A stretch of DNA of 64,000 bases, taken from the NCBI RefSeq assembly GCF_032854445.1, contig NC_088297.1, positions 11,926,163 to 11,990,162 of the forward strand. The letters are read 5' to 3'. The translations under genes and the position numbers were made by a program. A model generated the notes under the pieces. That model worked only from the letters and a program-made list of their open reading frames with translations, had not been told where the DNA came from and ran no database searches. Positions 19,799 through 54,337 of this stretch are shown here, one piece after another (position 1 is the stretch's first letter; the number at the start of each line of letters is the position of its first letter). The stretch is from Liolophura sinensis (taxonomy: Eukaryota; Mollusca; Polyplacophora; Chitonida; Chitonidae).

Positions 19799-20239
19799 CT
19801 GTACATCTTTGTCCTTTTCACAGCCGTTTTTTGGGCTTAGGTCTAAAAATTTAATCTTCCTTACAAAACAAAAATATTTGAACATTCTTGGACGCTCGAA
19901 GCTCAAATTGCGCTACCACAGCATAGAATCAGCGGTTCAAATTTTCTCCATTTGATCAGTGTATTTGAGACTTTTATATGGATTACATTTAAATGCTAAA
20001 GCCTGAAATCACTTGATCCAACCGTGTCTGTGGTAATCGCCGACGAACGTCATGGACAAAATCGAAGTTGTGCGTTTGCCAAAACCTTTACGTCAACAGG
20101 TTTGGCATGTATTTAGGTGACGATTTTTTTCCTGCCGACATCCGATTTTCTTTATTTATCTACCTGGTCTCTGTAATGGGCTTTATCTGGATATTTGGCT
20201 CATACATTCGTTACCTGGATATTCGCTTCATTCAAGAGT

Positions 20240-27487: not shown

Positions 27488-27536
27488 ATGGAGAGGGAGT
27501 CAAAGACAAGGGAGGACATTACGGACGGCAAGAAAA
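27488..27536 (+). CDS. SLC17 exon 1: start codon and cytoplasmic N-terminus
   Basis: The context acaaaacATGG is favourable. It encodes MERESKTREDITDGKK and ends phase 1 at gtatgt, which matches the phase-1 acceptor at 28,817. It is short, and chosen for phase compatibility plus an adjacent ETS-type motif. Not diagnostic by sequence. Confidence 0.5.
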
Positions 27537-30500
27537 GTATGTTGTTTTTCTTTTTGTTCCTATAGCCTTCTAATCTCTCCTCCTCCACCCCTCCACCGCC
27601 CACCCACCCACATATCAGAAAGGAAACTCATGGGCGGCACACGGTAGTGACACCGTATGTTGAGATGAAAGTCCACATGTGGTCTGAACCTCTTTCTAAG
27701 GTTCTGGTTCCGCTGCTCAAAACTGTTTAAGAATTAATATTAGATTTAACTTAAGGCCAAGTCTTCAATTTTATACTTAGTCTAAAATTAATTTGCGAAA
27801 CAGTATACTAAATATGAACTAAATCTGTTGTTGTTATGATTTGGCTTTTCACAACTGTATTGGCTACTGAGTTTGGCTAAGGTTTAAGAAAAAAGTGATA
27901 TGAGTTAATATCAGTATATAACATGGTTGAAAATGACAGCGTCTTAAATTAATTATTTAACTTTACCATTGTGTTTCCTTTAATTTGCTGTTAACACCTT
28001 GCTCTTTTCATCCTGTACAAATTTGGTGTTTATCTCTGCTAAAGGAATTATTAGGTGATTTGTTTTCGAATATCTCTGTTAAAGAAGTAAATTCGAGTTT
28101 CGTTTTGGTCAATCTCTGTTTACGGAAACTCCCAGATGTGTTGGTTTTTTTATCTCTTTCGGTGTACAGAAATATTCCGTTGTTTTGGACTCTTTTGCTC
28201 ACAGGTAGTCCCGAGGTCTTGTTTTGGTTCATTTATGTTTATAGACGCCCGCTTGGGTTTCATTTTTGTCTCTTTCTGTTTACAGCATTTCGCGAGCGTT
28301 TTGTTTTTGTCTATTCCTGTGTACAGAAATCCCCAGGGGGCCTCCGTGGCTCAGTCGGTTAGCGCGCTAGCGCAGCGTAATGACCCAGGAGCCTCTCACC
28401 AATGCGGTCGCTGTGAGTTCAAGTCCAGCTCATGATGGCTTCCTCTCCGGCCGTAAGTGGGAAGGTCTGCCAGCAACCTGCGGATGGTCGTGGGTTTCCC
28501 CCGGGCTGTGCCCGGTTTCCACCCACCATAATGCTGACCGCCGTCGTATAAGTGAAATATTCTTGAGTACGGCGTAAAACACCAATCAAAAAAAAAAAAA
28601 AAAAAAAAAAGAAATCCCCAGATCTTTCGTTTTTACCTCTTTCTATTTACAGAAATCCCCAGGTGTTTTGTTTTTGTCCATTTCTGTTTACAAAATCCCC
28701 AGATCTTTCGTTTTTACCTCTTTCTATTTACAGAAATCCCCAGGTGTTTTGTTTTTGTCTATTTCTGTTTACAAAATCCCCAGATCTTTCGTTGTTTTGC
28801 CTCTTTCTATTTATAGCAATCCCCAGGCGTTTTGTGTTGGTCTTCCTCTGTTTCATGGGAGTCCTGACCTACTTCGCACTTCGACTGAATCTTAGCGTTT
28901 GCTATTGTTGCCATGGTTACCACTCCACCCCAAAACGTTTCAGACAATGAGAGTTGCTTGAATTTCAGAAACATATCCTCCAAAGATGAAAAGGTTTGTG
29001 AAAAGTTTCTTACTTAATGGATCATAGTTACCATGTAGGGAATCACCAGTTTTAGGTGCACCTGTACATAAGTTAAAAAAGGTAAGAATTAAGTACATGT
29101 ATATTAAATTATTTGTTTTCATTTTTTTCTTACTAGGAAATTGCACGTAAAAATATATTTTCTAGGCTGTGTTTTTGATACTCTATCTTCCAATTTTTTT
29201 TCATGTTTAAAGATGTACTAAAAATGGCGAGTATTTTCGCTATTGTACTTCATCTGAGATGATGATCTCACAGAAAATAGCTCGCCACGATATCGCTGAA
29301 ATATTGCCGATATGGCGTTAAGCCATAATCATTCATTCACAGAAAATAGATATTTTCAAAAATCTCGAAAAATCTCTGCCTAAGATTGGGATTTATCCCC
29401 ACCTTATGTAATGCAAGTGTCAAATCCGACATGAAGTCCGATAAAAGTGCGTTCCAAATCGATAATTGCGAGACAAACAAAATTATGACATATGTATAAA
29501 ATAATACATAAAACGTAAACAAAACATGTAAGAGAGAAGCTGTCTTTCGATTTCACTGAGGTGTGGTAGACAGTCGATAATTAAGACATGGCACTTAATT
29601 CATATTTCACAAACTCTTAGTCAGTGAATAATTTTCATATCGAATACAAATGTGAGTATCTAGATAGCGCTTTGATTGCAACTGTTCATGAAAGCAGATT
29701 GTTGATGTAATAAATAGGAATGCTATACAGGCCTTAGCTTCGGGTTAAGCAGAACAGATCTTCCGAATTGTCAATCAAGAACACGGAATTGACCAGTCAT
29801 AAGCAGTATTGTTGCATTCGGATGTTCCACATATTGGTTGCAAATGTTCAGTCTTTCTGTGACGTTATTACGTCATAATTGCTTCCACCGGCAATGGAAT
29901 GAAAAGTAACGTTGTCAAGAGAAGTGGTGAGACATCGGGTATGTTGGACCCATCCATTAGATACGTCTACCTGTCCAGTACTCCATATGACTCCATAAAG
30001 CGGGCAAGTTCCACGAGGTCATTCCGGTTTGTGTTTTAGTTAAGGACTGAAGAAACAACCGTGTATCTAAGGTCGGAGATTAACCCATCATATTTAGGAT
30101 GTGTATACTTTTATTGTGAAACGTCAAAAAGGATTTTTCTGATCCCTAAGGTTATTCACAATGAATAACACTACCTCTCTTTTTATGGAATTATTGATTA
30201 TGCATTCACGAATAGGTTTTGCCAGGGTGGAGGGATGTCTGAGTATCTTTGGCACACCCCATTCTGACAAAACTAACATGGGAAGATAGGGAAAATAGGA
30301 TAAAATTGGAAATGAGACCAATGGCAAGCCTGGCTAAAACCATGCTCACTCACAGAAATTTCTTCTCATATACTGAAGTCCTGGTACACAATTAGCAGCG
30401 TATTATGGCAGCAAAGGTTTGGTAGGGCAAGGGTTCTCTGCAAGTCCTGCTTGATTAGCTCCACCCTAACTCGCTATTATCAATGCAATATTCTCCAGAA

Positions 30501-33500
30501 TAACAGTCAACCCAAATCTGATAAAAACAAATAACTTAACAGTTAAAAGATATAAACTATAAAAAGTACATACTTTATTATCACGTTGCATATATTTGAT
30601 TTTTTTATTAGCGCGGTGCGCGAGACACGCTCGCTTATATGGAGGCGGTATATTATATGGAGAAAACCAGTGTTCTCGGAGTAAAACCACCCAACTTGGT
30701 CAAGTAATTAACGCACCTCCTTACTTCACCAATGAATAAAAACTGTCGGTATCATTCACAGGTAGGAGAGTTACTTGGGACGCAGAGGACCAAGGTTTGG
30801 TTTTAGGAGGTTACTATTACGGCTATCTCATCTCCCAATTCCCCGGGGTATCCTTGCACAAAGAATCGGAGGAAAGAGAGCATTTGGCCTAGGTCTTTCT
30901 GCCATGTCTGTCCTGACGCTGCTAACGCCTGAGATCTCTCGCCTACATGTCTACGGCCTCGTCGTGTTGAGGGCTCTTCTCGGACTGGCTGCGGTAAGTG
31001 GGCCTGTAATCTTTCGCCTACATGTCTACGGATTGGTCGTGCTGAGGGTTTCTCTGGGGCTGGCTGCGGTAAGTGTGTCTGTGATTTCATGTCTGTGTGT
31101 CTACGGTCTCGTCGTGCTGAGAACTTTTCTTGGACTGGCTGTGGTAAGTGGGCCTGTGATCTCATGTCTGTATGTCTACAGTTTGGTCGTGCTGAGAGCC
31201 TCTCTGGGGCTGGCTGCGGTAAGTGTGTCTGTGATCTCATATCAGCATGTGTACGGTCTGGTCGTGCTGGTGGCTTTTCTGGGACTGGCTGCGGTAAGTG
31301 GGCCTGTGATTTCTCGCCTACATGTCTACGGTTTGGTCGTGCTGGTGGCTTTTCTGGGGGAGGTTGTGGTATGTGTGTCTGTGATCTCTCGCCTACATGT
31401 CTACGGTTTGGTCGTGCTGGTGGCTTTTCTGGGGGAGGTTGTGGTAAGTGTGTCTGTGATCTCTCGCCTATATGTCTAAGGTCTGGTCGTGTTGGTGGCT
31501 TTTCTGGGGGAGGTTGTGGTATGTGTGTCTGTGATCTCATGTATACATGTCTGCGGTCTGAGACCTTTTCTATGACTGGCTTTAACTGTCCACATCTCCA
31601 AAAAGTAGAGTTTTTATTCATGACGACGCATTTAAATCCAATATCCCCCACCCCCACACCGCCCCACCCGACCCCCGCCCTCTCTCTCTCCTTTAACTTG
31701 GACTAAAAATTCTCTTTCCTTATTCAATAGGAAGTCACTAACAGTATGATTTGAAGTCCATATCCCAGCATACATGAGAGCTTAAGACACGATTCAACTA
31801 GTTGTTGCAGTTGGTCGTTGATGGACTTACGGCTTTGAATTGAACCGGTATACAGTATATGTAAAGACTAGAATACATCACCGGTTGAGCCGCGTCGTTA
31901 TTTCGCATACACAAGCGCTTATGACAAAATACAACGGTCGCGCTTTGTAGAATTGCGTCTTGAGCTCCCGTGTATTCCGAGCTTTCGCCAAGAAACCATA
32001 GGACAAACAAGTAGTATCTAACATTTCATTTTATGCATGTTGACATCTTCCAGAATATAAGCTAGCGAATTAATGTTTATGACATTTTCCCTATAGGGCG
32101 TGGCATACCCGGGCATTCACGTGGTCCTGGCGAAGTGGTCCCCGTGTTCTGAGAAGAGCAGGTTGTCGGCCATTGTATTTGCCGGTGAGGTCGCTCAGTT
32201 AACGTCATAGTCGTCTTCTTAACAGTTTATTAATTTTATTTTTTCATATTTATACTTAATATCTATACAATTTTTATTTGTTTTATAATATTTATTTATG
32301 TTTGTTTATATTTATCTATGTTAATTTATTTTCAGTTTATTACGTATATTTTTTAATATTTGTATTTACTTTTATTTTCATATTTACTTTTTATCATCTA
32401 TATTTACTTTTATTATTTCTATCCATGATTTATTTATAATTCCATCGGTGCATATCACCGTTTTAAAAATGTGCCCGTCTTTAAACCACAGGCGTTTGGC
32501 ACATAATTGGCGACACTTCCCACATATAGCACACTGAGTATACTCGCAGAACAAGCTTAATGTGTACGCCATTTTGGTGAAGCCAGTAAACTTTATGTAA
32601 GACTATTGAAGCTGCCCAATCATTTATTTATTTTTTTGATTGGTGTTTTGCGACTTAGTCAACAATATTTCACGTATACGACGGCGGCCAGCAGTACGGC
32701 GGCCCGGCGAAAACCCATGATCATTCACACGTTGCTGAGAGAACTTGCCAAGTACGGCCAGAGAGGAAGCCAGCATGAGCTGCAAAGTCGTGTTAAACGT
32801 GACGCAGCTTAATAGTGTATCTGAAACAGGATTAGGAGCGTGCCCCTAACCATTGTTAGCGGTACATTGAAGTTGGTGTGCAGAGGGTGTGTCGGAATAA
32901 GAATTGTGTGTCGAGAAAGTTGTGACGAAGTTGCGGCACGCTTTGTGCCTGAAGCATGCCAGAATTGTTTGCGGCGAAGTTGTGGCACAACGTTAGCCAG
33001 AACATTGTTCATTTGTTACAGATTGCTGCAAGATTGCCGCAATCTATATAGTGTGCCGAAAAACTCATTTATTTGCGTGAAAAATCTGAAATGTTTATTT
33101 CGAGAGTGAGTAAGCTGTTTGCCGGAAGGATTTTTGTCTGAAAGAGTCATGCTGATCAGGTTTTAGTGTCTGTGCTGTAGTTGGTTATATTTATGAAGAC
33201 CAGTTTCATGATTCATCTTGTTTAAGCCTACATTTGTCATGAGTTTGGCTTCCATCAGGGGATTGTCTATTCTTGTCACCGTCTCTGACGACTTCCAGGA
33301 ACACAGCTTGGTTCCGTGGTGTCTCAGGCCGTGGCTGGTCTACTCTCAGATACCCACTTCCTCGGAGGATGGCCTTCTGTCTTCTACACCATGGGTAAAT
33401 GTGTTTTCTTTGTCGTGTTCTGCTTTCGGTATGGGTAACGGCAATTTCTTTGTCATATGTTCTGTGTAAGGTATGGACACTACATTTTCCCCATGTGGTC

Positions 33501-36500
33501 TGTATACGCTATGGGCAACTGAATATTTTGAGGGGGGGGGGGGGTGCAAAATGATCTGTGAACGCTATGGGTTCTGTGAACGCTATGAACAGCTGACTGC
33601 ATTTGTTAGGCAACTTTTGCTGACATTAATTTACCGATCATTTGTCTCACCATATTGCGGAGTTGCAAGTGGCATCTCTTTCCTTCACAACTCTTCGGAT
33701 GCTGTGGAAAATATGATTAGAAAGAGCTCTATGACAGTTTTGGCAAGTCACATGATAGAGTGGGACGTTTTTACCTTTAGCGATAAAAGAGTTGCAATTT
33801 GAAACTATTAAAACCCAACAGATATACAAATGACGATTATTGGCTCACGTAATTTGGGACATTCATATCGTTGTCTTTGCAAAAAAATGTACCAAATAGT
33901 TTTTGACCCCCCCCCCCCCCCCATTATATGACAGTCCATACTTGATTCTTTGATTATATATCCTTGGAAAAACCTATAAAAGTGCAACCAGCAACGACTA
34001 AATATTATTATTCACTAAAACAGGCGTGTTTGGATGTGGCTTGGCTGTCATCTGGATGCTTGTCATCAGCGAGTCTCCAGGGGAACATCCAAACATTTCC
34101 GGTCAGGAGAGAGAATACATCGAGAAAACGGCGAAACCCATCTCGAAGGTAAGGCAATTAAAGTGTGAGGTTTTAACTTCAAACCATTTTACAGCTCGCC
34201 TTTTTTTCTACTGTTACGAGGCTAGCCTAGTTGTCCTATACTATATCTTTATTCCCTTCCTTTCGATTTTGGTTGGCAAAGGGCACACGTCACAGTCCGG
34301 CATTTGGATTCTGGTGACGTAAAAATACAGACAGAACGAATTTTCAACAGAAGCTGACAAATTGTAATTTTATAGCAGACGTGTCAATCAATTTACGCGG
34401 TCCTGCTTCACACTTGTAAAGATTAAAGAATGTCCATTATCCGTGTTAAAGATTTTTATTTGTAGCCATCTAACGACTACTTGTAACGCCATTACAATAA
34501 TGGCGAGACCACACAGTGTGTTGTGGCGGACAGGCACGTATACATGTAGAGTTGTTATAAAAGCATGCATCGCGTCAACATGCGAAACATGGAAATCTAT
34601 CATTACATCTCCAACTTCTGCAAATAACAGTCTATGAGCACTTCTCAGTCCAAGAGCCTCACTGGTTGCTTAATGTCTCTCCTTGGTCTAGCTGGACTGA
34701 CTGTAGGAATGTCAGTGGTACTGGTCAGTTCGAGTTCAGTTGTCAGTTGCTTCTGATCGGAGGAATAGCATGTAGGTTGAAATGAGGAATCAGTCTGCTG
34801 TCTGATATCTGTCGCATTAGGTTTCTGATATTGCAGATGTTTAAATGGGTGGTTCTCAGCTTACTGTGAGTAGAGATCAGGGCTTGATGTCTGATTAACA
34901 TATTGCAAATCACGGCTATTCCTTTAAACACTAAACCATTCCTTGTTCGCACAAGAAAGGGACGAGGGGCTATCTGACGAATAACAGTTCCTTTCTGTAC
35001 CCAGGATTTCTGTTCCCTGATACGCATATTTGACCCAGGGCTCAATGGCAGTAGAGATCGGCCACCTGTGTCATGATACTGCTTCTGTTTCCTCCTCTGT
35101 TTCAATTTTCAACAGATTTTCAGATTTTCCAGCGTTTCTAAACAAATCTTTTTATGGGCAGATTTGAGCGAATGTTGACGATTCATTAACAACTGTGCTG
35201 GAGAACTTCAGTTCTCAAAAAGTGAACTACGGTACAGTCCAAGATATGGATCATCACCACTGTCACAGGATTTCTTTAGTACCCTCTTCACAATCTACAC
35301 CGCTTTTTCTACTAGTCCATTAGACTGGGGGTACAATGGGCTGGATGTCGCATTGGTAGATTTCCACTCTCTAGAGAACTGTTTGAATTCACAAATGTTG
35401 TAGCATGGTCCATTGTCACTAACAACTTTATCTGGTATACCATGTCTGGCAAATACAGATTTTAATGCCTGGATCACTGGTTTACTTCAGGATCCACTGA
35501 GTTGAAAATCAACAGCAATTATGGAGGTTTTGTGTTCAACATAGCACAAATCGAAGGCAACGTTTTCCCAAGGCTGTACAGTTACTGGGTGTGGCAACAA
35601 TGGTTCACTCTGCTGCTTTGTTCTCTATGTAATACATAGTTCATAGTATTTCACTACATTTTTCACTACAGTGTAACACTTCATGGGCTCTACGTTTACA
35701 CTTTTCTTCGGCAAGGTGACCTTTGTGGATTTTTGTCAGCATAAGGTCACGCACTTTGATCAACTGGGATCACAATTCTAGTGTCTTTAAACACGAACCC
35801 GTCAGTGGTGGTCAGTTCATCCTTGTAATTACAAAATTGAGAGATCTCAGTTGGACGAGATTTTTTCGTTAGGGCATCCATCAAGAATCACTCTGACAAG
35901 AGTGACATCACAGTATCATTAGCTGTTTGAGTTCTGATGTCATCTAGTCGTTCCTCAGACACCTGTACATTTGACAGTCTGCCATCAGCATATGCTTGTG
36001 CATCAGCCTCTGCACTGCTGTACTTTCTGTTTGTTGTAAGCTCCAGATAAAGCATCTGTTGTAAACATCAGCTTTCCAGGTGTACAATACATAGATAAAT
36101 ATAAGCGTCATGTCCGACTTTCATATACCATTCCTAGTCCGTAAAAGGCGTTTCAAGTCGATAATCGCAAGATCCATTTCCTAAACGTTACACTAGACTC
36201 CCAAAGACAAGGTATGTAAGAAATTATACAAATAAGAAATAAAGCCGGTAACACACAAGAGAGAAGCGGTCATCAGTTTTCAATGATGCCGGGCATCATA
36301 CTTTCGCAATCGCAGTCGGAATCGTTGTAGTTTTTGAGGGTACTCAGTCAGTCCCTTTTTGAATATGGCTTCTAAGGGCTTGTGATTTGTTTCAATTTCA
36401 ACAGCCTGGCCATGTACTAAGACTGAAATGTACTGAGGAAAATGTTCACATGCATAAGTAATGGCAAGAGTTTCTTTTTCAATTTGTGCATGTCTACACT

Positions 36501-39500
36501 CAGCTTGTGTCACAGCCCGGATGCATAGGCAATTGGCAACCACAAGTTGTCGTCATGTCTTTGTAAGAGTACATCACCAATTCCATTCTTACTTGCACTA
36601 ACTGATACTTTGACTGGTTTCGTCTGGTCATAAAATTGTAACAGAGGCTCACGGGAAATGGCTTCTTTAAGACCTTCCGGGTCATCTCCTGTTCATCTGT
36701 CCAGTCCCACTGTATGGTTTTGTTCAGGAGCTTACGCAGTGGTGCAGTTCTTGCTGACAAGTCTGGAATGTAACCACCATGATAATTTATTATGCCTATA
36801 AAACGCTGTATATTCTTCTTACATTCAGATCTGGCAAAGGCATTGATGGCTTTTCTTAGGGTCACGTCTGAGTCCATTGTTTGAGATTGTATCACCTCAC
36901 ACAGTATAGACATTTGGTTGGACTGAGTTTCAGGTTATTGTCTCTGGCAATTTTCAACACCTGTCTTACGTGGTTATCTTGTGGCTCTTTCTCATTTGTA
37001 CAAATAATGGCATCATCTATGCATGTATCGACTCCATCAGCAAAAATCGAGTGTATCTGTCGATGATAAATTTCCGGGGCGGTGGAGATACTAAATGGTA
37101 ATCTCAAATAGGGATATCGTCCAAATGGTGTATTGAACGTACATAGCCTAGACCTTTCCTCATCAAGAGGTATCTGCCAGAATCCTCTAGAAGCATTCAG
37201 TTGTGTGAAGTAACGAGCATCGGCAAACTTGGACATTACTTCATCTCTGGTGGGTTAATTTTAGTCCTCTCTCAAGATGACTTTGTTCAAATTTTGTAGG
37301 GTCCAAGGATGTGCGTAACTTTCCATTAGGCTTGTTAACTACAACCGTTGAACTCACCCATCCTGTAGGTTCACTTATTTTTGTAATTACATTTATTTGC
37401 TCTGTTTGTTCATGTACCCCTTTCACCTGGGGCTATTGGGATTTTACGACATGCTTCTACCACAGGGGTGCAGCTTTCTCTCAGCTTTGTGTTGACTTTA
37501 GCTTTCAATCATCCAACTTCCTGAAACAACTCTGGAAATTCTGAAAACACATTAGTTTCATGGTTTGGCATTGACAGCAAACACTCGTTTAATTAGTTTA
37601 ATCATACTGTCTCTCGTTTTCCTGTCTGATATTGGCTGAACATCCCCTGTGCTGATAATAAAGATAATAATAAGTCCCTCTTATCAGTCCCTAGTGTTCA
37701 ATAGCTGGTACACATTGTCCAATAGCTGGTATTTCACTACCATGAAATGTAATTAGTTAAATACAGATTTGGGCAAAATATTCACATCTGAACCAGTGTT
37801 CAACTTAAGATGAACGACAATGGTACAATCCATGGCTCCATGCTTGACTGGGAGTCTATTTTATCAGCAAAACCCGTTGACTGAGTAGACTCTGTACAAT
37901 CCTTATTTCGAGAGCTGTTTTCAACAACATGAACTTTTTTGGTTTTGACACATTTTCTGAAAATATCCAATATTCGAACACCGATTACGTTTGTCCATGT
38001 GCTGAGCACTTTCCACGTACAGCTTGGAGATATCCACATGGGCTACATTTGAAGCCATTATGTTTTCCCTCCTTTGATTTGTGTGTTTATATGTTTTATT
38101 TTCAGTGTTACTTACACCACTTTTATATGTCTGTCCTTTCTGTTTACCTTTGTGCTTGCTGACTGCATGGCTGACTTATCGTCATCCGTCATAACTTTCA
38201 GCTCATTACTGGCAGTTTCAGATGCTCTGCGTGACGATATAGCCTTATCAAAGGTTAAATGTGCCTCACTTAACAGTCTTATCCTTGTCTCTTCAGAGTT
38301 AATTCCCTCTGTAGTTCTTTTCTTCAGGATACTGTCTGTTAAAAGACTGCACTCAAAATTCTTTATGAGTAGCTATACCCACAATCCTTAATGAGAAGCC
38401 TAATGAATGTCAAGAAACTATCAAATGGGTTACCTGGTCGCTGAACGCGATGGCCCAGTTTATGCCTCTCAAATGTGGCGTTTTTCTTCGGCATGCAGTG
38501 TTCTGCGAAATTTCACCATCAAAGATTCTATTTGATCACTCTCGTCTTCTGTAAACGTGAATACATTGTACACTTCAATGGCATTTGTGCCGGCAAGAGT
38601 CAAGAATGTTGCACATTGTAAAACTTCAGCTTTTTTCGATTTCTCTGACATTATCATGTACAACCTATAATGCTGCAAATTCTCCGATACATTTCTGTTG
38701 AGATTCAGAGGTTTCGGTGTTGGCAAGCCGTCTTGACTAATGTTGCACTATGCAGAAATTTCTGTGCTCCGCTGTTGTCATCATGTAATGATTAAAGACT
38801 GCCCTTTATCAGTGTTAAGGATGTTTACTGGAGTCATCAACAAGTACTTCAAGCCACTCGACAGACAAAATGAAATAAATGTTTTGAAAACATTTGTTCA
38901 TGTAAGTGCACGATGTCCCTCCCTATTGCCGGGAGAACGTTGTCTAGTGTTTCCGCGAACATGGGATATTACTTTGTGAATGTGGCGTTGCTTGAGCCCG
39001 TTGTCCTGGCACATCAGGTTTTTGGAAATGTCCTATGACCATGTACTGTCCAATGAAAAACGAAATCATTCTATAAAGCTTAAACCGGAAGTTTTGAGAT
39101 CAAATTCTTGTCGCTAAAGGTAAAAAAAGTCCTACATTACAATGTTTAGCAAACTTTTGTTAACATCAATTTACTGATCACCTGTGTCATCGTGTTTTGG
39201 GGGCAAAAAGGACATCACTTTCCTTAAGGAACTTACGAAGTCCACGAACACTCAGCTCTTCAATTTTCTCTGTCGTTTATTTATTTATTTATTTGATTGG
39301 TGTTTTACGCCGTACTCAAGAACATGTCACTTATACAACGGCGGCCAGCATTATGGTGGGTGGAAACCGGGCAGAGCCCGAGGGAAACGCACGACCATCC
39401 GCAGGCTGCTTGCAAACCTTTCTACATACAGCCGGAGAGGACGCCATCATGAACTGGACTTGAACTCACAGCCAACGCATTGGTGAGAGACTCTTGGGTC

Positions 39501-42500
39501 ATTACGCTGCGCTAGCGCGCTAACCAACTGAGCCACGGAGGCCCCTCTGTCGTTTAACTACTCCAAAAAACTTTCTGTGAAACTTTTTAGACCCCCGTGT
39601 TATGGTATATGTTATTAAAAATAGTTACCTAACATTTCTGAAAGATCACATGATGCTGTAAGACTTTTTTTACCTTTAGCGACAAAAGAGTTCGAACTGG
39701 AAAGTCCCTGACTATGGTTAATGATACTTGACGATTCACTTACAGAAACTGAAGACGCCGTGGGGGTCTCTGCTGAGATCTGTACCCTTCTGGGCTATCG
39801 GTATCACCCGTCTCTGTAACCTCTGGGGAATGTTCACACTATTTTCCTATCTCCCCAGATACATAGAACAGGTGCTACATTTTGACACCAAAGAGGTAAG
39901 CTTGAGTGTAGAATAGATTTATTTATTCCATATTGTTACCTGGACAAAGCTTCCCTGGTTCATTCATGTGGCCTTAAATGTATTCTCCTCACCTGTTTTA
40001 GAAGGCCTCCTCAGTTTCACTCACGGCCATAGCGGTCGGGGTGGGGAATGTGAGGGAGGGGGAAAAAGTTACTTCAATATGTTTCAAGTATTAGCATCCG
40101 TTTGTATCTGTTGGTATATCCTGTTATTGCCCCAAAGGGGATTAGAAAGTGCCCACTCGTAATACCCATTAAATGAATAAATAAATACAGTAGACTACTT
40201 TGATTTTTAAAACCATTTTTTACCCGTACCTTGATTTTCTCCTCATTTTTCAGAATGGCCTCCTCTCCGCCCTGCCGTATCTTGCCTGCTGGATGTTTAT
40301 TATGGTAGCAGGGTTCTTGTCTGACTCCCTCAGAAAAAAACACATGTCGACAAAAAATGTGAGAAAGTTGATGACTACTGCAGGTTAGTGAAAGCTTGGG
40401 ATATTGCCCATATAATGCAATATCCCGGTTCACAACGTGGATTTCATTCAAAATGACAGGACTTATACGTGAACAGGAGTCTATTCGATAACCTGCAAAT
40501 ATCGCTCTACAGGGTGACTTCGCGTTACAAGACTGATACGCCGAAAGCTTCTCTTTCTGAGTATTGGGTGAGCGGGTCAGGTCAAAGTGGTTAAGGCACT
40601 TGCCTTTCAGTCACAGGGACACATGGGGTCCGGCTTCAAAAACAGGCCTTGGACAGCGAATTTTGTAAATTTCCCTTCTCACTGTTCTTGGGGCCATTGT
40701 TATCAGAAGCTGTCAACGACGCTCGTGTGGCCGTTTGCGCAGTATTCTTTGGTCAGTGTTCCTTGAATAGCTGTACGTCACGCATGAATAATAAATGAAT
40801 TTTTTTAGCCTATATGTAGTTTCTTTTTTTTTAGTTTTGAGTCCGTATTCATCACTATTTCAGACGTTACATCAGACAAAAAACAAACAGACCAAGAAAG
40901 TCCGGACGGATCGCAATTGTACATTGACTTAATTTTCAGGTCTTGTTGTTGTTGCACCGATATCGCCAATATTCATAGAACACTAATAATATAATTATCG
41001 TTATAGGTATGGTTACTCCCGCCGCCTTACTGGTTGCTGTTAGCTACACCGGATGTGACGTCACAGTTAATATTTTGCTTCTCACTCTGGCCGTTGGATT
41101 TTCTGGATTGTCTTTCTCTGGTTACTATGTCAACCATCTGGATATTGCACCGAGATTTTCAGGTAAACAACAATAGTTCTGGTTACCATGTCAACACCTG
41201 GACATTGCGTCGAGATTCTCAGGTAAACGACAACAGCAATCTTGGTTACTATGTAAACAGCCTGGACACTGAGTTTAGATTCTCAAGCAAACAATTAGAA
41301 GCTAGTCCTTTAAGAAGGTTACTTTCCCGATAGGAATTAAGAACCACTTTACTTAAAGTGAATGCATCAAGTCAAAAATAATATGTGTCTGAAATGAAAG
41401 ATTTATTTATTCATTTATTTATTTGATTGGTGTTTTACGCCGTACTCAAGAATATTTCACTTACAAGACGGCGATCAGCATATGGTAGGAGGAAACCGGA
41501 CAGAGCCCGGGTGAAAACCCACGCTCATCTGAAGGTTGCTGTCAGACCTGAAATGAAAGATAGCATGGAACTGTGTCCATAAATGCTTCAAATTTTTTAT
41601 ACATTTTTTCACCGAGAAATTCCCCGCAAAAACAATTCTTTTCTAAGGCTGGTTTTTGAGATCATAACTTCTAAAGTTTTTTCACATTATTTTGATCACC
41701 TAAATTCATTCAAACTTATTAGAATCGTCTCAAGGGATGTCATCAGAGAGGATTTTACAGAAAACAACTGCTTTCGAGATGGTCCGTAGGCACATGAGGG
41801 AAGCTCAATATGAAGTTATGTCACGCCACATTAATCAAACATGGCCCGAAAAGGCCACCATATTTTATCCTAATTTTTACACCGCATCAAACACACTAAA
41901 AAAATAATGAAAATAGTTTTTGATACGGTTTTGCGGTGGGGTCTTTGGATAGCAGTGAATTTATCACATCGTTTATATTCACTTTAATAGATTAATTAAT
42001 ACACAATTCAAATACTGACTAGCCATCAGACACCGGTTTCGATCGGTAAATTTCATAGACATCAGTAAAAATAAGCTCAAAAGCTCGATTTCTCTCTATT
42101 GACTAATACTAGCATCTGTCTACTTTTTTCTTGTCAGTTTTCTTATCATAGTTCAAGTGTTCTCTTTGTGGCCTTTTTTTTTGCCCATGTCAGTTACATA
42201 GTTCATGACCACTGATGTCTCTCAGGTGTCATGTATTCTCTATGGCCTCTGTTTTTGCCCATATCAGTTATACAGTTCATTATAACTGATGTCTCTCTGT
42301 TGTCAGGTGTTCTCTGTGACCTTTCTTTTTGTCCGTCTCAGCTACATAGTTCTCGGTCACTGATGTCTCTCTGTTGCCAGGTGTTCTCTGTGCCTTTCTT
42401 TTTTGTCCATGCCAGATACACAGTCCGGGACAACTGATGTCCCTCTTGTGTCAGCTGTTCTTTATGACCTCTGTTTTTGTCCGTGTCAGCTTCATAGTTC

Positions 42501-45500
42501 TTGACCACTGATGTCTCTCTGCTGTCAGTTGTTCTCTGTGGCCTTTCTTTTTGTCCGTGTCAGCTACATAGTTCGCGGTCACTGATGTCTCTCTGTTGCC
42601 AGGTGTTCTCTATGGCCTTTCTTTTTGTCCATGCCAGATACATAGTCCATGACAACTGATGTCCCTCTTGTATCAGCTGTTCTTTATGGCCGCTGTTTTT
42701 GTCCGTGTCAGCTACATAGTTCTTGACCACTGATGTCTCTCTGTTGTCAGGTGTTCTCTACGGTCTCTCTTTTTGTCCATGCCAGATACATAGTCCATGA
42801 CAACTGATGTCCCTCTTGTGTCAGCTGTTCTTTATGGCCTGTCCCTTTGTTTATGTCAGTAACACAGTCCGTGACCACTGAAGTCGTCAGGTGTTCTTTA
42901 TAGCACCCATTTTGCCCAGGTCAGTTACTGATGATCACTGATGTCTCTCAGGTGTCAAGTGTTCTCTGTGGCCTTTCTTTTTGTCCGTGTCACCTACATA
43001 GTTCTTGACCACTGATGTCTCTCAGGTGTCAAGTCTTCTCTGTGGCCTTTTTTTGGTCAGTGTCAGCTACATAGTTCATGACCACTGATGTCTCTCTATT
43101 GGCAGGTGTTCTCTATGGCCTTTCTTTTTGCCCATGTCTGTTACATAGTTCATGACCCAATGATGTCTCTCTGTTGTCAGGTGTTCTCTATGGTCTCTCT
43201 CTTGTTTATGTCACTTGCACAGTTCATGACCACTGATGTCTCTCAGGTGTCATGTGTCCTCTGTGGTCTTTCTTTTTGTCCGTGTCACCTACATAGTTCT
43301 TGGCCACTGATATCTCTCAGGTATCATGTGTCCTCTATGGCCTTTCTTTTTGTCCGTGTCACCTACATAGTCCTTGACCACTGATGTCTCTCAGGTGCCA
43401 TGTGTCCTCTATGGCCTTTCTTTTTGTCTGTGTCACCTACATAGTCCTTGACCACTGATGTCTCTATGTTGTCAGGTGTTCGCTATGGTCTCTCTTTTGT
43501 CTATGTCCCTTGCACAGTTCATGACCACTGATGTCTCTCTGTTGTCAGGCGTTCTCTATGGTCTCTCTTTTGTTTATGTCACTTGCACAGTTCATGACCA
43601 TTTATGTCTCTCTGTTGTCAGGTGTTCTCTGTGGCCTTTCTTTTTGTCCGTGTCACTTGCACAGTTCATGACCACTGATGTTATCTCTGTTGTCAGGTAT
43701 TCTCTGTGGCCTTTCTTTTTGCCCATATCAGTTACATAGTTTATGACCCAGTGATGTTTGTCTGTTGTCAGGTATTCTCTATGGTCTCTCTTTTGTCTAT
43801 GTCAGTTACATAGTTCATGACCCACTGATGCCTCTCTGTTGTTAGGTGTTCTCTGTGGTCTTTCGTTTTGCTCATGTCGGTTATATAGTCATGACCACTG
43901 ATGTCTCTCAGGTGTCATGTGTCTATGGCCTTTCTTTTTGTCCGTGTCACCTACATAGTCCTTGGCCACTGATATCTCTCAGGTATCATGTGTCCTCTAT
44001 GGCCTTTCTTTTTGTCCGTGTCACCTACATAGTTCTTGACCCCTGATGTCTCTCAGGTGTCATGTGTCCTTTATGGCCTTTCTTTTTGTCCGTGTCACCT
44101 ACATAGTCCTTGACCACTGATGTCTCTCTGTTGTCAGGTGTTCGCTATGGTCTCTCTTTTGTCTATGTCCCTTGCACAGTTCATGACCACTGATGTCTCT
44201 CTGTTGTCATGCGTTCTCTGTGGCCTTTTTTTGGTCCGTGTCAGCTACATAATTCTTGGCCACTGATGTCTCTCTGCTGCCAGGCGTTCTCTATGGTCTC
44301 TCTTTTGTTTATGTCACTTGCACAGTTCATGACCATTGATGTCTCTCTGTTGTCAGGCGTTCTCTGTGGCCTTTCTTTTTGTCCGTGTCACTTGCACAGT
44401 TCATGACCACTGATGTTATCTCTGTTGTCAGGTATTCTCTGTGGCCTTTCTTTTTGCCCATATCAGTTACATAGTTCATGACCCAGTGATGTTTGTCTGT
44501 TGTCAGGTATTCTCTATGGTCTCTCTTTTGTCTATGTCAGTTACATAGTTCATGACCCACTGATGCCTCTCTGTTGTTAGGTGTTCTCTGTGGTCTTTCG
44601 TTTTGCTCATGTCGGTTATATAGTCATGACCACTGATGTCTCTCAGGTGTCATGTGTCTATGGCCTTTCTTTTTGTCCGTGTCACCTACATAGTCCTTGA
44701 CCACTGATGTCTCTCAGGTGCCATGTGTCCTCTATGGCCTTTCTTTTTGTCCGTGTCACCTACATAGTCCTTGACCACTGATGTCTCTCTGTTGTCAGGT
44801 GTTCGCTATGGTCTCTCTTTTGTCTATGTCCCTTGCACAGTTCATGACCACTGATGTCTCTCTGTTGTCATGTGTCCTCTGTGGCCTTTTTTTTGTCCGT
44901 GTCACCTACATAGTCCTTGACCACTGATGTCTCTCAGGTGCCATGTGTCCTCTATGGCCTTTCTTTTTGTCCGTGTCACCTACATAGTCCTTGACCACTG
45001 ATGTCTCTCAGGTGTCATGTGTCCTCTGTGGCCTCTCTTTTTGTCCGTGTCACCTTCATAGTTCTTGACCCCTGATGTCTCTCTGTTGTCAGGTGTTCGC
45101 TATGGTCTCTCTTTTGTCTATGTCCCTTGCACAGTTCATGACCACTGATGTCTCTCTGTTGTCAGGCGTTCTCTGTGGCCTTTTTTTGGTCCGTGTCAGC
45201 TACATAATTCTTGGCCACTGATGTCTCTCTGTTGTCAGGCGTTCTCTATGGTCTCTCTTTTGTTTATGTCACTTGCACAGTTCATGACCATTGATGTCTC
45301 TCTGTTGTCAGGCGTTCTCTGTGGCCTTTCTTTTCGTCCGTGTCACTTGCACAGTTCATGACCACTGATGTTATCTCTGTTGTCAGGTACATAGTTCATG
45401 ACCCAGTGATGTTTGTCTGTTGTCAGGTATTCTCTATGGTCTCTCTTTTGTCTATGTCAGTTACATAGTTCATGACCCACTGATGCCTCTCTGTTGTTAG

Positions 45501-48500
45501 GTGTTCTCTGTGGTCTTTCGTTTTGCTCATGTCGGTTATATAGTCATGACCACTGATGTCTCTCAGGTGTCATGTGTCTATGGCCTTTCTTTTTGTCCGT
45601 GTCACCTACATAGTCCTTGGCCACTGATATCTCTCAGGTATCATGTGTCCTCTATGGCCTTTCTTTTTGTCCGTGTCACCTACATAGTCCTTGACCACTG
45701 ATGTCTCTCAGGTGTCATGTGTCCTCTGTGGCCTTTCTTTTTGTCCGTGTCACCTTCATAGTTCTTGACCCCTGATGTCTCTCTGTTGTCAGGTGTTCGC
45801 TATGGTCTCTCTTTTGTCTATGTCCCTTGCACAGTTCATGACCACTGATGTCTCTCTGTTGTCAGGCGTTCTCTGTGGCCTTTCTTTTCGTCCGTGTCAC
45901 TTGCACAGTTCATGACCACTGATGTTATCTCTGTTGTCAGGTGTTCTCTGTGGCCTTTCTTTTTGCCCATATCAGTTACACAGTTCATGACCCAGTGATG
46001 TTTGTCTGTTGTCAGGTATTCTCTATGGTCTCTCTTTTGTCTATGTCAGTTACATAGTTCATGACCCACTGATGCCTCTCTGTTGTCAGGTGTTCTCTGT
46101 GGTCTTTCGTTTTGCTCATGTCGGTTATATAGTCATGACCACTGATGTCTCTCTTTTGTCAGGTGTTCTCTGTGTTCTTTCGTTTTGTCCGTGTCAGCTA
46201 CATAGTTCTTGACCACTGATGTCTCTCTATTGCCAGGTGTTCTCTATGGCAACTCTGTGGGCTACATATTTCATGGCCACTGGTGTGCGTCTGTTGTCAG
46301 GTGTTCTCTGTGACCTTCCTTTTTGTCCATGTCAGTTACATAGTCCATGACAATTGATGTCTCTCTTGTGTTAGGTGTTCTTCATGACCTCTGTTTTTAT
46401 CCATGTATGTTATATAGTTCATGACCACTGATGTTTGTCTGTTGTCGGGTGTTCTCTACGGTCTCTCTTTTTGTCTATGTCAGTTACACAGTCCGTGACC
46501 ATTGATGTCCCTCTGCTGTCACGTGTTATCTGTGGCCTGTCTTTTTGCCCATGTCAGTTACATAGTTCATGACCACTCAAGTTTTTCTGTCGCCAGGTGT
46601 TCTTTATAGCATCTCTTTTATTGCATGTTAGTTACGCAGTTCATGATCACTGATGTCTCTCTGTTGTCAGGTGTTCTCTATGATCTCCCTTTTGTCTATG
46701 TCACTTGCACAGTTCATGACATGTGTTCTCTATGGCCTTTCTTTTTGACCTTGTCAGTTACATAGTTCATGACCCACTGATGTCCCTCTGTTGTCAGGTG
46801 TTCTCCATGGTCTCTTTTTTGACCGTGTCAGTTACTTAGTTCATGATCACTGATGTCTCTCAGTTCATGATCACTGATGTCTCTCTGTTCATGATCACTG
46901 ATGTCTCTCTGTTGCCAGGTGTTCTTTATGGCCTAAGCAATGGAGCTGCCTCTGTTTCTGGATTCGTTGCGCCTTACCTAGTCGGCTACATCTTGGAAGA
47001 AAAGGTGAATGTCCTTAAAATCTCATTTTGGAAATTTGTGAAAATGTTCGTCCCCTGATGTGTGTGATGTCCACTAGTTTCTTACATAAAGCGATATTTC
47101 AACTGTTGTTTTCAAGGCCATTCACATCTATATGCAGGTCGTGACATGATGGTTAAAAGCTTTTGTCTTTCAATCGCTATGCGAGGTCAAACCCGGCTGT
47201 AGATAGGGAAATCGTACATTCCACGGCCCTCACTACTTGTGGGGAGACAATATGCAGATCACAACGCTCTTGGGGCCGTATGCATATTGCCCCGTTCGTT
47301 GGAAGCCAGTTGTCTTCAGATAAATAATGGGGGGAAAATATGCATATGTCTACATCGCAAAGGAAGAAAGTTCGTCAGTAACTTGTTCATAGTTGATAGT
47401 TTACCTCAGGTACTCACATTTCTTCCACTGATAATACATAGCGATACCATCTACCTGATCCGTGGTCGAGGGTTTAGCGTGCGAGCGCAGCCGACAATGA
47501 CTCAGGAGCCTCTCACCGATGAGATCGCTGTGAGTTGAGGTCCATTCTGGTCCTCTTCGGTCGTTCGAGGGAAGATGTGTCAAGGGTTTAATCTCGGTTT
47601 CCTCCCATCATAATGCTGGCCACCGTCCAAAATGTTCTTGAATACGCGTAAAACATCAATCTAATAATAAAAAACAGGAATAGTACTTCTTCCCAAGTTG
47701 TGCCAAGTTGAGAAAACGGTCAATAAATTAGATGTCAGATAATTATGAACACGTTCTTCCACCAATAATCACATGGGGGGTATTGAAGCCACTAAAATAT
47801 ATTTTATTTTATTCAGCAAACCCAAGAACAATGGAGGATAGTTTTCTTTATTTGTGCCGGTATTTACGTCTTTGGGGCGATAATCTTCGTGATTTTTGCT
47901 GACGGCCAAGTACAGCCTTGGGCTGTGGCCGCCATTGAAATGGAAATTAAACAAGCAGTATCTGTAATGGGCCAAGTGGCGTACGGTTTGCCCGGAAAAC
48001 CGAACATTCCGGAAAAGCCAGGGAGACCAAAGGAGGAATACGTGAAAAAATTAGAGGACCGTCCGAAACAAGAGGGCCTTCCGAATCCAGAGATCCCAGT
48101 GAAACCAGAGAACCTACAAAATTCAGAGAAGGTGCACAAGCCAGAAAACCTTCAGAATTCAGAGAAAGTGCACAAGCCAAAAAACGTCCAGAATTCAGAG
48201 AAGGTGCACAAGCCAGAAAACCTTCAGAATTCAGAGAAGATGCACAAGCCAGAAAACCTTCAGAATTCAGAGAAGATGCACACCCCAGAAAACCTTCAGG
48301 ATTCAGAGAAGATGCACACCCCAGAAAACCTTCAGGATTCAGAGAAGATGCACAAGCCAGAAAACCTTCAGGATTCAGAGAAGATGCACAAGCCAGAAAA
48401 CCTTCAGAATTCAGAGAAAGTACACAAGCCAGAAAACCTTCAGAATTCAGAAAACCTACAGAAACCAGAGAACCTACAGAAACCACAAAACCTACAGAAA

Positions 48501-48632
48501 CCAGAGAACTTTAAGAAGCCAGAGAACCTGCAGAAGACAGAGAACCTACAAAAGCCAGAGAACCTGCAGAAACCAGAGAACCTACAGAAGCCAGAGAACT
48601 TGCAGAAGCCAGAGAACCTACAGAAGCCATAG
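27488..48632 (+). CDS. slc17a5-like: SLC17-family anion transporter, sialin/VGLUT type, with KPENLQ-repeat C-terminal tail (gene span)
   Basis: Exons: 27488-27536, 28817-28993, 30762-30993, 32097-32184, 33299-33394, 34024-34148, 39746-39895, 40254-40383, 41007-41162, 46919-47004 and 47817-48632. From 32,097 onward every junction matches in phase. The family is a 12-TM MFS carrier that moves organic anions with H+ or Na+ at the plasma membrane or in vesicles and lysosomes. Diagnostic features: the TM1 end RLNLSV; ILAQRIGGKRAFG in the TM2-3 loop; YPGIHVVLAKWSP with the conserved His in TM4; ESPGEHPNISGQEREYIEK in the central loop; GFSGLSFSGYYVNHLDIAP in TM10; and QTQEQWRIVFF...VQPW at the end of the core. 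Beyond the usual ~480-residue core there is a ~220-residue polar repeat tail. Two single-base frame disruptions are present, at 28,898-28,900 and 30,845-30,848. Four exon edges are amplified in adjacent introns. The substrate cannot be inferred. Confidence 0.9.
28030..28830 (+). repeat. Acceptor-junction minisatellite upstream of the TM1 exon
   Basis: Units of ~40 bp, paired as ~81-bp dimers, contain tctatttacag, aaatccccaggtgttttg and tttttgtc. The true junction at 28,816/28,817 reads tatttatag|caatccccaggcgttttgtg, so the unit covers the pyrimidine tract, the AG and the first ~15-20 exon bases. Copies become more diverged towards 28,030. A full SINE-1 is inserted at 28,337. Confidence 0.75.
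28337..28609 (+). mobile_element. SINE-1, full length with TSD and poly(A)
   Basis: Complete head (ggcctccgtggctcagtcgg), body and tail, here ending in a pure A tract rather than (AAAT)n. Flanked by AGAAATCCCCAG at 28,325-28,336 and again from 28,610. The target is itself a unit of the junction minisatellite. Confidence 0.95.
28817..28993 (+). CDS. SLC17 exon: TM1 and start of first luminal loop (frame-disrupted)
   Basis: Acceptor ctatttatag. It reads IPRRFVLVFLCFMGVLTYFA to RLNLSV, the family TM1 hallmark. After the T run at 28,898-28,900 the family continuation (AIVAMVTTPPQNVSDN) is in another frame, so one T appears to be extra. Three N-glycosylation sequons (NVS, NES, NIS) follow, as expected of the TM1-TM2 loop. 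The end is ambiguous: gtttgt at 28,994 gives phase 0, but the next identified exon begins phase 1. Either a further small exon exists or a different donor is used. Confidence 0.75.
29400..29960. repeat. Dispersed repeat families R1 + R2, adjacent
   Basis: 29,400-29,760 resembles 4420-4830 and 36,096-36,290; 29,768-29,960 resembles 14,925-15,140. Their adjacency here suggests both are parts of one longer, unclassified interspersed element. Confidence 0.55.
30762..30993 (+). CDS. SLC17 exon: TM2-TM4 start (frame-disrupted)
   Basis: Acceptor atcattcacag. It reads VTWDAEDQGLVLGGYYYGY (TM2) up to QFPG, where the G run at 30,845-30,848 appears one base short. The family continuation ILAQRIGGKRAFGLGLSAM is found one frame over. 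It ends LLGLAA at a gtaagt donor, phase 0, joining GVAYPGIH of the next exon. The last ~68 bases of this exon, plus the donor, are repeated seven more times downstream at 75-bp intervals. Confidence 0.8.
30926..31560 (+). repeat. 75-bp donor-junction minisatellite (8 splice donors)
   Basis: Eight units of exactly 75 bp, each containing tacatgtctacgg-like exon sequence, ctggctgcg or gaggttgtg, and then gtaagt or gtatgt. GT positions are 30,994, 31,069, 31,144, 31,219, 31,294, 31,369, 31,444 and 31,519. The first is the SLC17 exon end. Because 75 is a multiple of three, the frame stays open until a TAA in the unit ending at the eighth donor (about 31,479). Confidence 0.92.
32097..32184 (+). CDS. 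SLC17 exon: TM4 (GVAYPGIH motif)
   Basis: Acceptor ccctatag, donor gtgagg. It encodes GVAYPGIHVVLAKWSPCSEK then SRLSAIVFA. The His and the W-(A/S)-P...E-(R/K)-S pattern are conserved in SLC17. Phase 0 in, phase 1 out. Confidence 0.92.
32622..32782 (-). mobile_element. SINE-1 copy, truncated
   Basis: Minus-strand tail (tttttttgattggtgttttg) to gagaggaagccagcatgagc; the tRNA head is missing. Confidence 0.75.
33299..33394 (+). CDS. SLC17 exon: TM5 and following loop
   Basis: Acceptor acttccag, donor gtaaat. It encodes TQLGSVVSQAVAGLLSD then GGWPSVFYTM, matching the family GxQLGxxxSxPxxGxL...GWPxVFY pattern. Phase 1-1. Confidence 0.92.
33600..33805. repeat. Fragment of the TIR element seen at 39,092-39,702
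   Basis: Shares aacttttg-t-acat-aatttac, a catcnctttccttnan block, and the terminal gtttttacctttagcgataaaagagtt. Only the right terminal repeat is visible. Confidence 0.55.
34024..34148 (+). CDS. SLC17 exon: TM6 and central cytoplasmic loop
   Basis: Acceptor aaaacag, donor gtaagg. It encodes VFGCGLAVIWMLVISESPGE then HPNISGQEREYIEK. The SP-x-x-HP-x-I-S-x-x-E-x-x-YIE string is a clear SLC17 signature. Phase 1 in, phase 0 out. Confidence 0.93.
34395..34740 (-). mobile_element. Probable 3' LTR remnant of Ty3/gypsy element
   Basis: About 70 bp (gattaaagaatgtccattat, ccgtgttaaag) resembles 38,757-38,830 on the other side of the coding remnants (gattaaagactgccctttat, cagtgttaagg). The position is as expected for decayed LTRs of the minus-strand element. 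Boundaries are approximate. Confidence 0.4.
34743..38726 (-). pseudogene. Decayed Ty3/gypsy retrotransposon (gag-pol relic)
   Basis: Read on the minus strand, fragments occur in the standard order. A Gag-like start (MPTPKPLNLNRNVSENLQ) begins at 38,726. A possible Gag or protease part lies at ~37,800-38,039. Reverse transcriptase pieces span 37,426-36,500, including LNASRGFWQIPLDEE and a CIDDAII active-site motif. An RNase H piece lies at 36,543-36,280, an integrase core (SDNGPCYN ... SSPLYPQSNGLVEKA) at 35,477-35,295, and an integrase C-terminus at 35,105-34,743. Frames are broken throughout, and an R1 repeat splits RNase H from integrase. It lies antisense in an SLC17 intron and is clearly inactive. 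Confidence 0.88.
36096..36290. repeat. R1 repeat inserted in the gypsy relic
   Basis: Nearly the same as 4438-4632 (ataagcgtcatgtccgac, agtcgataatcgcaagatcc, gagaagcggtcatcagtttt). It interrupts the retrotransposon between RNase H and integrase, so it arrived later. Confidence 0.75.
38757..38830 (-). mobile_element. Probable 5' LTR remnant of Ty3/gypsy element
   Basis: Resembles 34,395-34,470 in order and content; lies just upstream (on the minus strand) of the Gag-like start. Confidence 0.4.
39092..39702. mobile_element. Non-autonomous TIR element containing a SINE
   Basis: Left end cttgtcgctaaaggtaaaaa and right end tttttacctttagcgacaaa are reverse complements over ~28 bp. The interior is non-coding, and a full SINE-1 is nested at 39,280-39,544. 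Confidence 0.7.
39280..39544 (-). mobile_element. SINE-1, full length with TSD, nested in TIR element
   Basis: Complete minus-strand copy from (TTTA)n to gccacggaggcccc. Flanked by CTCTGTCGTTTA at 39,268-39,279 and 39,545-39,556. Confidence 0.93.
39746..39895 (+). CDS. SLC17 exon: TM7
   Basis: Acceptor cacttacag, donor gtaagc. It encodes TPWGSLLRSVPFWAIGITRL then WGMFTLFSYLPRYIEQVLHF. The TPW...S.PFWAI and LP-Y---VL-F patterns are typical of the family. Phase 0-0. It is separated from the previous exon by an intron carrying a Ty3/gypsy relic. Confidence 0.92.
40254..40383 (+). CDS. SLC17 exon: TM8
   Basis: Acceptor catttttcag, donor gttagt. It encodes NGLLSALPYLACWMFIMVAG then FLSDSLRKK and KNVRKLMTTA; NG-LSALPYL and RK-x-x-x are family features. 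Phase 0 in, phase 1 out. Confidence 0.92.
41007..41162 (+). CDS. SLC17 exon: TM9-TM10
   Basis: Acceptor cgttatag, donor gtaaac. It encodes MVTPAALLVAVSYTGCD then LAVGFSGLSFSGYYVNHLDI. The AVGFSG...GY-VNHLDIAP motif is diagnostic. Phase 1-1. The last ~45 bases and the donor are repeated twice more, imperfectly, just downstream. Confidence 0.93.
41116..41290 (+). repeat. Donor-junction triplication after the TM9-10 exon
   Basis: Units of 61-63 bp start at ggttactatgtcaac (41,120), ggttaccatgtcaac (41,181) and ggttactatgtaaac (41,244). Each continues ctggacattg-like sequence and gagatt-tcag|gtaaac; the third has agcaaa in place of the donor. The first is the real exon end. Confidence 0.85.
41403..41547 (-). 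mobile_element. SINE-1, 5'-truncated with TSD
   Basis: Minus-strand tail and body only, with the tRNA head missing, yet flanked by the 14-bp repeat CTGAAATGAAAGAT at 41,389-41,402 and 41,548-41,561. Consistent with 5' truncation at insertion, as in LINE-driven retroposition. Confidence 0.9.
42130..46918 (+). repeat. ~74-bp acceptor-junction minisatellite, ~65 copies
   Basis: Unit: gttgtcaggtgttctctatg, gcctttctttttgtccgtgt, cacctacatagttcatgacc, actgatgtctctct. The last copy merges into the real acceptor and exon start at 46,918/46,919 (ctgttgccag|gtgttctttatggcc). Larger blocks recur: an identical gttag-gtgttctctgtggtctttcg segment begins at 43,846, 44,581 and 45,501. Short open frames in this interval are repeat products. 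Confidence 0.92.
46919..47004 (+). CDS. SLC17 exon: TM11 start
   Basis: Acceptor ctgttgccag, donor gtgaat. It encodes VLYGLSNGAASVSGFVAPYL then VGYILEEK, matching the family GxSNxxA--xGFV-P--VG pattern. Phase 1 in, phase 0 out. The first ~20 bases and the acceptor match the ~74-bp unit repeated across the preceding 4.8 kb. Confidence 0.9.
47458..47665 (+). mobile_element. SINE-1 copy, diverged
   Basis: tccgtggtcgagggtttagc head remnant, gagcctctcacc, ggtttcctcccatcataatg, and a degraded tail. Confidence 0.65.
47817..48632 (+). CDS. SLC17 terminal exon: TM12 and repeat tail
   Basis: Acceptor ttattcag. It starts QTQEQWRIVFFICAGIYVFG and runs through TM12 to VQPW, where family members usually end soon after. 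The frame continues with a GKPNIPEKPGRPKEE linker, then ~9 copies of a 12-residue unit (KPENLQNSEKVH) and ~12 copies of a 6-residue unit (LQKPEN). It stops at a TAG that arose within a repeat unit. Strongly charged and probably disordered, on the cytoplasmic side. Confidence 0.9.
   Translation, partial: QTQEQWRIVFFICAGIYVFGAIIFVIFADGQVQPWAVAAIEMEIKQAVSVMGQVAYGLPGKPNIPEKPGRPKEEYVKKLEDRPKQEGLPNPEIPVKPENLQNSEKVHKPENLQNSEKVHKPKNVQNSEKVHKPENLQNSEKMHKPENLQNSEKMHTPENLQDSEKMHTPENLQDSEKMHKPENLQDSEKMHKPENLQNSEKVHKPENLQNSENLQKPENLQKPQNLQKPENFKKPENLQKTENLQKPENLQKPENLQKPENLQKPENLQKP

Positions 48633-53911: not shown

Positions 53912-54337
<426 letters not shown>

Follow-up and report, generated by a model that had tools for sequence, protein, structure and literature searches.

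Exon–intron borders within minisatellites in a sialin-like SLC17 gene and other genes of the chiton Liolophura sinensis

The window gene and its exons

The window analyzed here is a 64,000-nucleotide stretch of the genome of the chiton Liolophura sinensis (NCBI RefSeq assembly GCF_032854445.1, contig NC_088297.1, positions 11,926,163 to 11,990,162, forward strand), whose plus strand carries a sialin-like SLC17 gene with ten translated exons, probably preceded by a further small one. At four exon ends of this gene, the exon edge and its splice signal are repeated in tandem into the adjoining intron. The assembly was first published as Liolophura japonica, and the species was later corrected to L. 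sinensis (PMC12441733); molluscan haemocyanin is found in it as eight tandem units on scaffold C8 (PF14830), on which ground a lancelet host, as the literature on such arrays would suggest, was rejected. Positions below are those of the window unless a scaffold is named. The exons, delimited by translation and borders except where stated, are:

27488..27536, plus strand: exon 0, putative short N-terminal coding exon with the start codon (from sequence and splice signal)
28817..28993, plus strand: exon 1, first membrane segment, 1-nt frameshift near 28897
30762..30993, plus strand: exon 2, 1-nt frameshift near 30845
32097..32184, plus strand: exon 3
33299..33394, plus strand: exon 4
34024..34148, plus strand: exon 5
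39746..39895, plus strand: exon 6
40254..40383, plus strand: exon 7
41007..41162, plus strand: exon 8
46919..47004, plus strand: exon 9
47817..48632, plus strand: exon 10 with the stop, its 3′ part an 18/36-bp coding tandem repeat (also from Tandem Repeats Finder, TRF, and open reading frames)

The eight exons 3–10 read through in one frame to a single stop at the end, and all 313 residues of the resulting protein align with sialin (PDB 8dwi, residues 176–486; E = 6e-73), with a Pfam MFS_1 match at E = 6e-35. AG or GT is present at each internal exon border. Because of its two frameshifts, this gene copy may be a pseudogene, or else the assembly may be in error here. The coding repeat of exon 10, which encodes a KPENLQ-type peptide, occupies 48101–48978 and thus continues beyond the stop at 48632.

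Four arrays at exon ends of the window gene

Tandem amplification into the adjoining intron was found by TRF and the Basic Local Alignment Search Tool (BLAST) at the acceptors of exons 1 and 9 and at the donors of exons 2 and 8, confirming the first-pass annotation of this DNA, which had described two donor and two acceptor edges of the gene as amplified:

28264..28850, plus strand: acceptor array of exon 1, ~41-bp units with ~38 nt of exon edge plus AG (TRF, BLAST, copy comparison)
30927..31560, plus strand: donor array of exon 2, 75-bp units (~60 exon + 15 intron), 8.5 copies (TRF, BLAST)
41117..41294, plus strand: donor array of exon 8, 60-bp units (~45 exon + 15 intron), 2.9 copies (TRF, BLAST)
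42153..46918, plus strand: acceptor array of exon 9, 74-bp units (~57 intron + 17 exon), ~60 copies (TRF, BLAST)

In all four arrays the unit includes exon edge plus splice signal; judged by eye, its intron part is short in three of them and long at exon 9 (~57 of 74 bp). The earlier description of such units as amplified independently, beside existing introns and in the manner of intron growth, was likewise supported. The exon 9 array occupies most of a 5.8-kb intron, and its final copy continues into the exon, whose edge matches the array copies to 16 nt inside (BLAST). Both of our scripts missed this array because the TRF call stops short of the exon; it was added by hand from BLAST, and the scripts themselves count three arrays in the window gene (P = 0.002). 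Surplus copies retain an intact GT in seven of seven cases at the exon 2 donor and in one of two at the exon 8 donor, and an intact AG in 41 of 59 at the exon 9 acceptor. The copies at exon 1 lie at 28264–28322 and 28610–28850, separated by an insertion (~28331–28609) that resembles a tRNA-derived short interspersed nuclear element; a search for its sequence as text in papers gave no match. Since the insertion splits the array, the array would be at least partly older than the insertion.

Arrays of the same kind in other genes

Exons were sampled by homology, regardless of repeats, from SLC17 paralogues, kinesin motors and two dynein stretches. The SLC17 sample comprised 46 exon matches including the window gene, 30 of them giving loci, plus seven fetched stretches; the kinesin sample consisted of the best 30 of 54 motor-exon matches, and the dynein sample of two stretches (4.25 kb with 16 exon ends) out of 59 matches. 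A PF07690 family search gave 13 matches, each within a long open frame; their loci (L002–L014) were excluded from the junction statistic. Outside the window gene, the merged sample contains 266 exon ends, counted even where a sampled stretch has little intron, and 36 arrays whose unit is 25 bp or longer; repeats with shorter units, the exon 10 coding repeat among them, stand outside the statistic.

By strict count, eight of these 36 arrays span a junction, so that what had been described as a process in one gene extends to SLC17 paralogues and kinesins. The four SLC17 arrays lie at exon 1 acceptors on C1 and C3, an exon 7 donor on C3 and an exon 7 acceptor on C9; the four kinesin arrays lie at a KIF5-like donor on C11 (73-bp unit) and at acceptors on C8, C9 and C1, the last being only probable. 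No junction array was found in the 4.25 kb of dynein sequence with its 16 exon ends. Together with the four of the window gene, 12 junction arrays were thus examined, 4 at donors and 8 at acceptors. Intactness of the paralogue and kinesin genes was judged on the matched exons only.

Downstream of the window, one SLC17 paralogue (C3:12004000–12019000, L045 and L046) has arrays at both its exon 1 acceptor and its exon 7 donor, the latter with a 117-bp unit in 13–14 copies. In the KIF5-like gene on C11 (L053, L058), the 73-bp donor array itself contains, far downstream, another copy of the exon tail; it matches query 265–323, does not differ from the in-use copy in the part compared, and could be either a spare exon or the product of recent copying over a long range. 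An exon-heavy unit make-up, considered as a general trait, looked striking in SLC17 and became mixed once the kinesins were added.

Fate of surplus copies and choice of splice site

Across the arrays the splice dinucleotide is intact in 166 of 210 surplus copies. Identity was 0.883 at the dinucleotide vs. 0.889 at the other aligned positions of the same 210 copies (bootstrap interval of the difference, −0.029 to 0.033), a comparison restricted to copies that mismatch the seed at no more than 36% of positions. Splice sites therefore decay like the remainder of the unit, and neither selection for buffered sites, which had been offered as one cause, nor a purging of decoy splice copies, which we also considered, is seen. 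In 9 of the 12 arrays adjacent copies are closer to one another than to the in-use copy (9 arrays were re-averaged, giving six positive and three negative cases, and the remaining three were read off as positive). This standing apart of the in-use copy agrees with homogenization inside the array that omits its edge.

With a simple scoring of splice sites, the in-use donor has the best or equal-best score in all four donor arrays, whereas inner copies equal or exceed the in-use site in seven of the eight acceptor arrays. Since inner acceptors score as high or higher, strength alone cannot mark the copy to be used, and the choice made by the spliceosome is probably set by position relative to the exon. 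In the window gene, the exon-adjacent sites yield an open frame colinear with sialin.

Minisatellite load and donor words

TRF arrays with a period of 15 or more make up 25% of the window. With units of 25 or more, the share covered is 20.6% in the kinesin loci (82.7 kb), 9.2% in the SLC17 paralogue stretches (88.6 kb) and nil in the dynein stretches (4.25 kb). This load is not visible in the repeat table of the assembly paper, which lists 0.08% as “other (simple repeat, microsatellite, RNA)” (PMC11068029).

For a check independent of annotation, exact 9-mers of strong donor words were located from the start of scaffold C1, with reversed words as controls; the counts at this scaffold refer to the first 100 places listed per word. 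With clustering at 700 bp, 6 of 46 distinct loci were amplified for CAGGTAAGT and 10 of 42 for AAGGTGAGT, compared with 7 of 57 and 6 of 57 for their reversed controls. Pooled, this is 16/88 for donor vs. 13/114 for reversed words (odds ratio 1.7, P = 0.22); clustering at 300 bp gave 19/99 vs. 14/118 (P = 0.18). The test is blunt, many of the words not being real donors. Genome-wide, three donor-word copies spaced 34–64 bp gave 316 matches vs. 171 for the reversed word, and the donor word by itself occurs 9807 times vs. 4849 for its control, a ratio of ~2. On our reading, junction amplification is about as frequent as the general minisatellite load would predict, a two-fold excess being possible.

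Comparison with known systems

The first-pass annotation knew of no named class for such arrays. One has been described in amphioxus: mirages, tandem repeats spanning exon–intron borders, reported in Adh3 and the globins BflGb6 and BflGb9 (PMC3087553) and in TnC and PGBD5 (PMC3902484). According to the globin report, units measure 10–160 bp, reverse transcription PCR suggests regular splicing, array length is unstable (3 and 6 units in the two haplotypes of BflGb6), AG or GT is present in many but not all copies, cluster edges are similarly left out of homogenization, and the authors propose a model of intron gain (PMC3087553). The chiton arrays have the same structure: the tandem unit combines exon edge, splice signal and intron in the four window arrays and in eight elsewhere (one probable), donor as well as acceptor borders are involved, splice signals persist in many copies, the interior is homogenized without the edge copies, and the median spacings of the 12 arrays (27–118 bp) fall inside the reported unit range. 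They differ from the reported cases in occurring in a mollusc and not a cephalochordate, in reaching ~60 copies and 4.8 kb, in numbering four in one gene, and in their frequency of 8 arrays at 266 sampled exon ends outside the window gene. We treated occurrence in cephalochordates as non-defining, since it is no part of the structure. The founding paper on mirages is reportedly that of Canestro and colleagues from 2002. An open-literature search with the terms mirage, minisatellite and mollusc turned up no report that we recognized of mirages outside lancelets, and as far as searched the second phylum, the high frequency and the copy number of up to ~60 are new.

Other systems are more distant. 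The human gene IFI6 (6-16) is said, by Turri and colleagues in 1995, to contain a minisatellite with multiple splice donors, two downstream units serving as donors (as cited in PMC4526556); it resembles the chiton arrays as a repeat at an exon end that supplies repeated donors, but use of inner units is reported there, whereas in the chiton the exon-adjacent copy is predicted to be the one used. Fission yeast reportedly has 24-bp AGGT repeats with several copies and an intron across them (Zhu and Niu, 2013, as cited in PMC4974935); these too are tandem copies bearing splice signals, but of exonic origin, whereas the chiton unit takes in part of an existing intron. In potato RdRp, a tandem duplication crossed an intron–exon border and created a new intron, a single event, unlike the high-copy arrays beside existing introns seen here (PMC4974935).

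Proposed explanation and alternatives

We consider it likely that the arrays are mirages, i.e., minisatellites spanning an exon–intron border, which arise as a by-product of a minisatellite-rich genome and are tolerated at junctions. Replication slippage or unequal exchange (a mechanism we infer from the anatomy) would first produce a tandem duplication that by chance takes in an exon edge and its splice signal. The exon-adjacent copy would still serve as splice site and leave the protein unchanged, and the extra copies would become intron, where they could multiply and diverge freely. A duplication lying within a coding exon would change the protein and in most cases disappear, leaving the junction as the site at which exon sequence could multiply at no cost. 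This genome is rich enough in minisatellites for a few per cent of exon ends to be hit.

Several observations weigh against so neutral an account, and most of them bear on a possible, if doubtful, alternative in which the borders themselves are prone to tandem duplication, for instance through a polypyrimidine tract resembling T-rich exon or through R-loops at splice sites. Under a null model in which each array is collapsed to one unit and placed at random, founders lying wholly in exons being forbidden, the eight junction arrays outside the window gene compare with 3.68 expected (Poisson P = 0.034), a modest excess over chance. The lenient count of ten (Poisson-binomial P = 0.0015, Poisson P = 0.0047) adds two doubtful arrays, one on contig C8:680668 (exon at 559, 2.2 copies) and one on contig C3:19741111, where the script has probably over-extended the edge. 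An earlier null using raw TRF edges gave 5 vs. 2.24 for kinesins (P = 0.057), 3 vs. 1.39 for SLC17 minus the window gene (P = 0.15) and 6 vs. 1.82 for all SLC17 (P = 0.006). Each of these sets, paralogues as well as kinesins, leans to an excess, and a junction-specific push of about two-fold may exist. The window gene is still an outlier: all four of its arrays that pass the unit floor lie on junctions, where four random founders in the collapsed gene (those wholly inside exons excluded) would span 0.28. The probability of all four, 2e-5, is post hoc, the gene having been chosen for its arrays, and omits the exon 10 repeat and two AT-rich 19–20-bp repeats of intron 3; if the gene is dying, selection on it may also be relaxed. 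Among the donor triplets, at least 10 distinct arrays on C1 and at least 4 on C2 (at least 14 in all) stand against at least 6 and 0 for the reversed word, counted by eye among the matches listed, and clustering the 9-mers at 150 bp gave 25/115 vs. 14/133 (P = 0.022), a setting that splits single arrays. In the acceptor units of exon 1 on C1 and exon 7 on C9, the intron AG is joined to a T-rich part of the exon, as this alternative would have it. In three of the 12 arrays, moreover, the in-use copy is not set apart, and the use of the exon-adjacent copy by a spliceosome that would ignore the inner ones is read from the DNA. Against a junction-specific push stand the size of the excess (about two-fold at most), the donor 9-mers, which at 700-bp clustering are not clearly above their reversed controls, and the donor word itself, which is twice as common as its control. 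The comparison of junctions with random positions that had been suggested at the outset, made here on samples, gave an excess at junctions of about two-fold at most. A bolder version, in which chiton borders are the preferred birthplace of minisatellites (~two-fold over intron interior) and a general engine of intron growth, independent in lancelets and molluscs and acting at thousands of junctions per genome, strikes us as unlikely.

Intron gain by duplication of an AGGT-bearing segment, with the arrays as its relics or its engines, is improbable. The exon 8/9 intron has CAG|GT on either side and arrays at both ends, and its distribution counts against our preferred account, since it lies in the same place in three C3 genes (the window gene included), ~three codons upstream in two C9 genes, and is absent in four. 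However, the corresponding introns of two paralogues tested are without exon-edge copies, AG|GT occurs at only 4 of the 12 in-use junctions, and most introns beside arrays are common to paralogues that lack arrays there; nor do the arrays present a new intron with both sites drawn from AGGT copies, as in the Rogers model. Selection for spare splice sites could point to the 166 of 210 surplus copies that keep their dinucleotide, but that dinucleotide is retained no better than the neighboring bases, and we give this explanation very little credence. An assembly artefact is just as improbable: coverage with HiFi reads was only 14x, and the window gene has its two frameshifts, but adjacent copies differ by 7–30% on average, arrays recur across many genes, and the mean HiFi read of 8.3 kb exceeds the length of each of the 12 arrays (both read figures from PMC11068029).

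Other features of the window

Minisatellites also lie outside the SLC17 gene, at 20236–23154 (34-bp unit, ~86 copies), 24602–25969 (26-bp unit, ~53 copies) and 61501–63997 (51-bp unit, ~49 copies); the last extends to the window edge, and the 26-bp unit includes the donor-like word GAGTAAGTA. Intron 5 contains retrotransposon remnants on the minus strand (36280–37254; Pfam RVT_1 and RT_RNaseH). A histone H3 open frame without introns (53912–54337; Pfam Histone) is possibly an H3.3-like retrocopy. A repeated cysteine motif, C..GD....C...CC.TC, runs through several open frames at 1564–5623; the one piece searched (4970–5623) matched no Pfam family.

Implications

The mirage reports found so far concern amphioxus, gene by gene (PMC3087553, PMC3902484). 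The abundance of such arrays in a chiton, including in a KIF5-like gene, suggests that mirages follow the minisatellite load of a genome and are not a lancelet peculiarity. Gene predictors may convert them into false exons, which the authors of the lancelet PGBD5 study suspected in that gene (PMC3902484). As natural arrays of near-identical splice sites, present in number, they offer a system for studying what leads the spliceosome to the exon-adjacent copy when as many as ~60 lie in a row.

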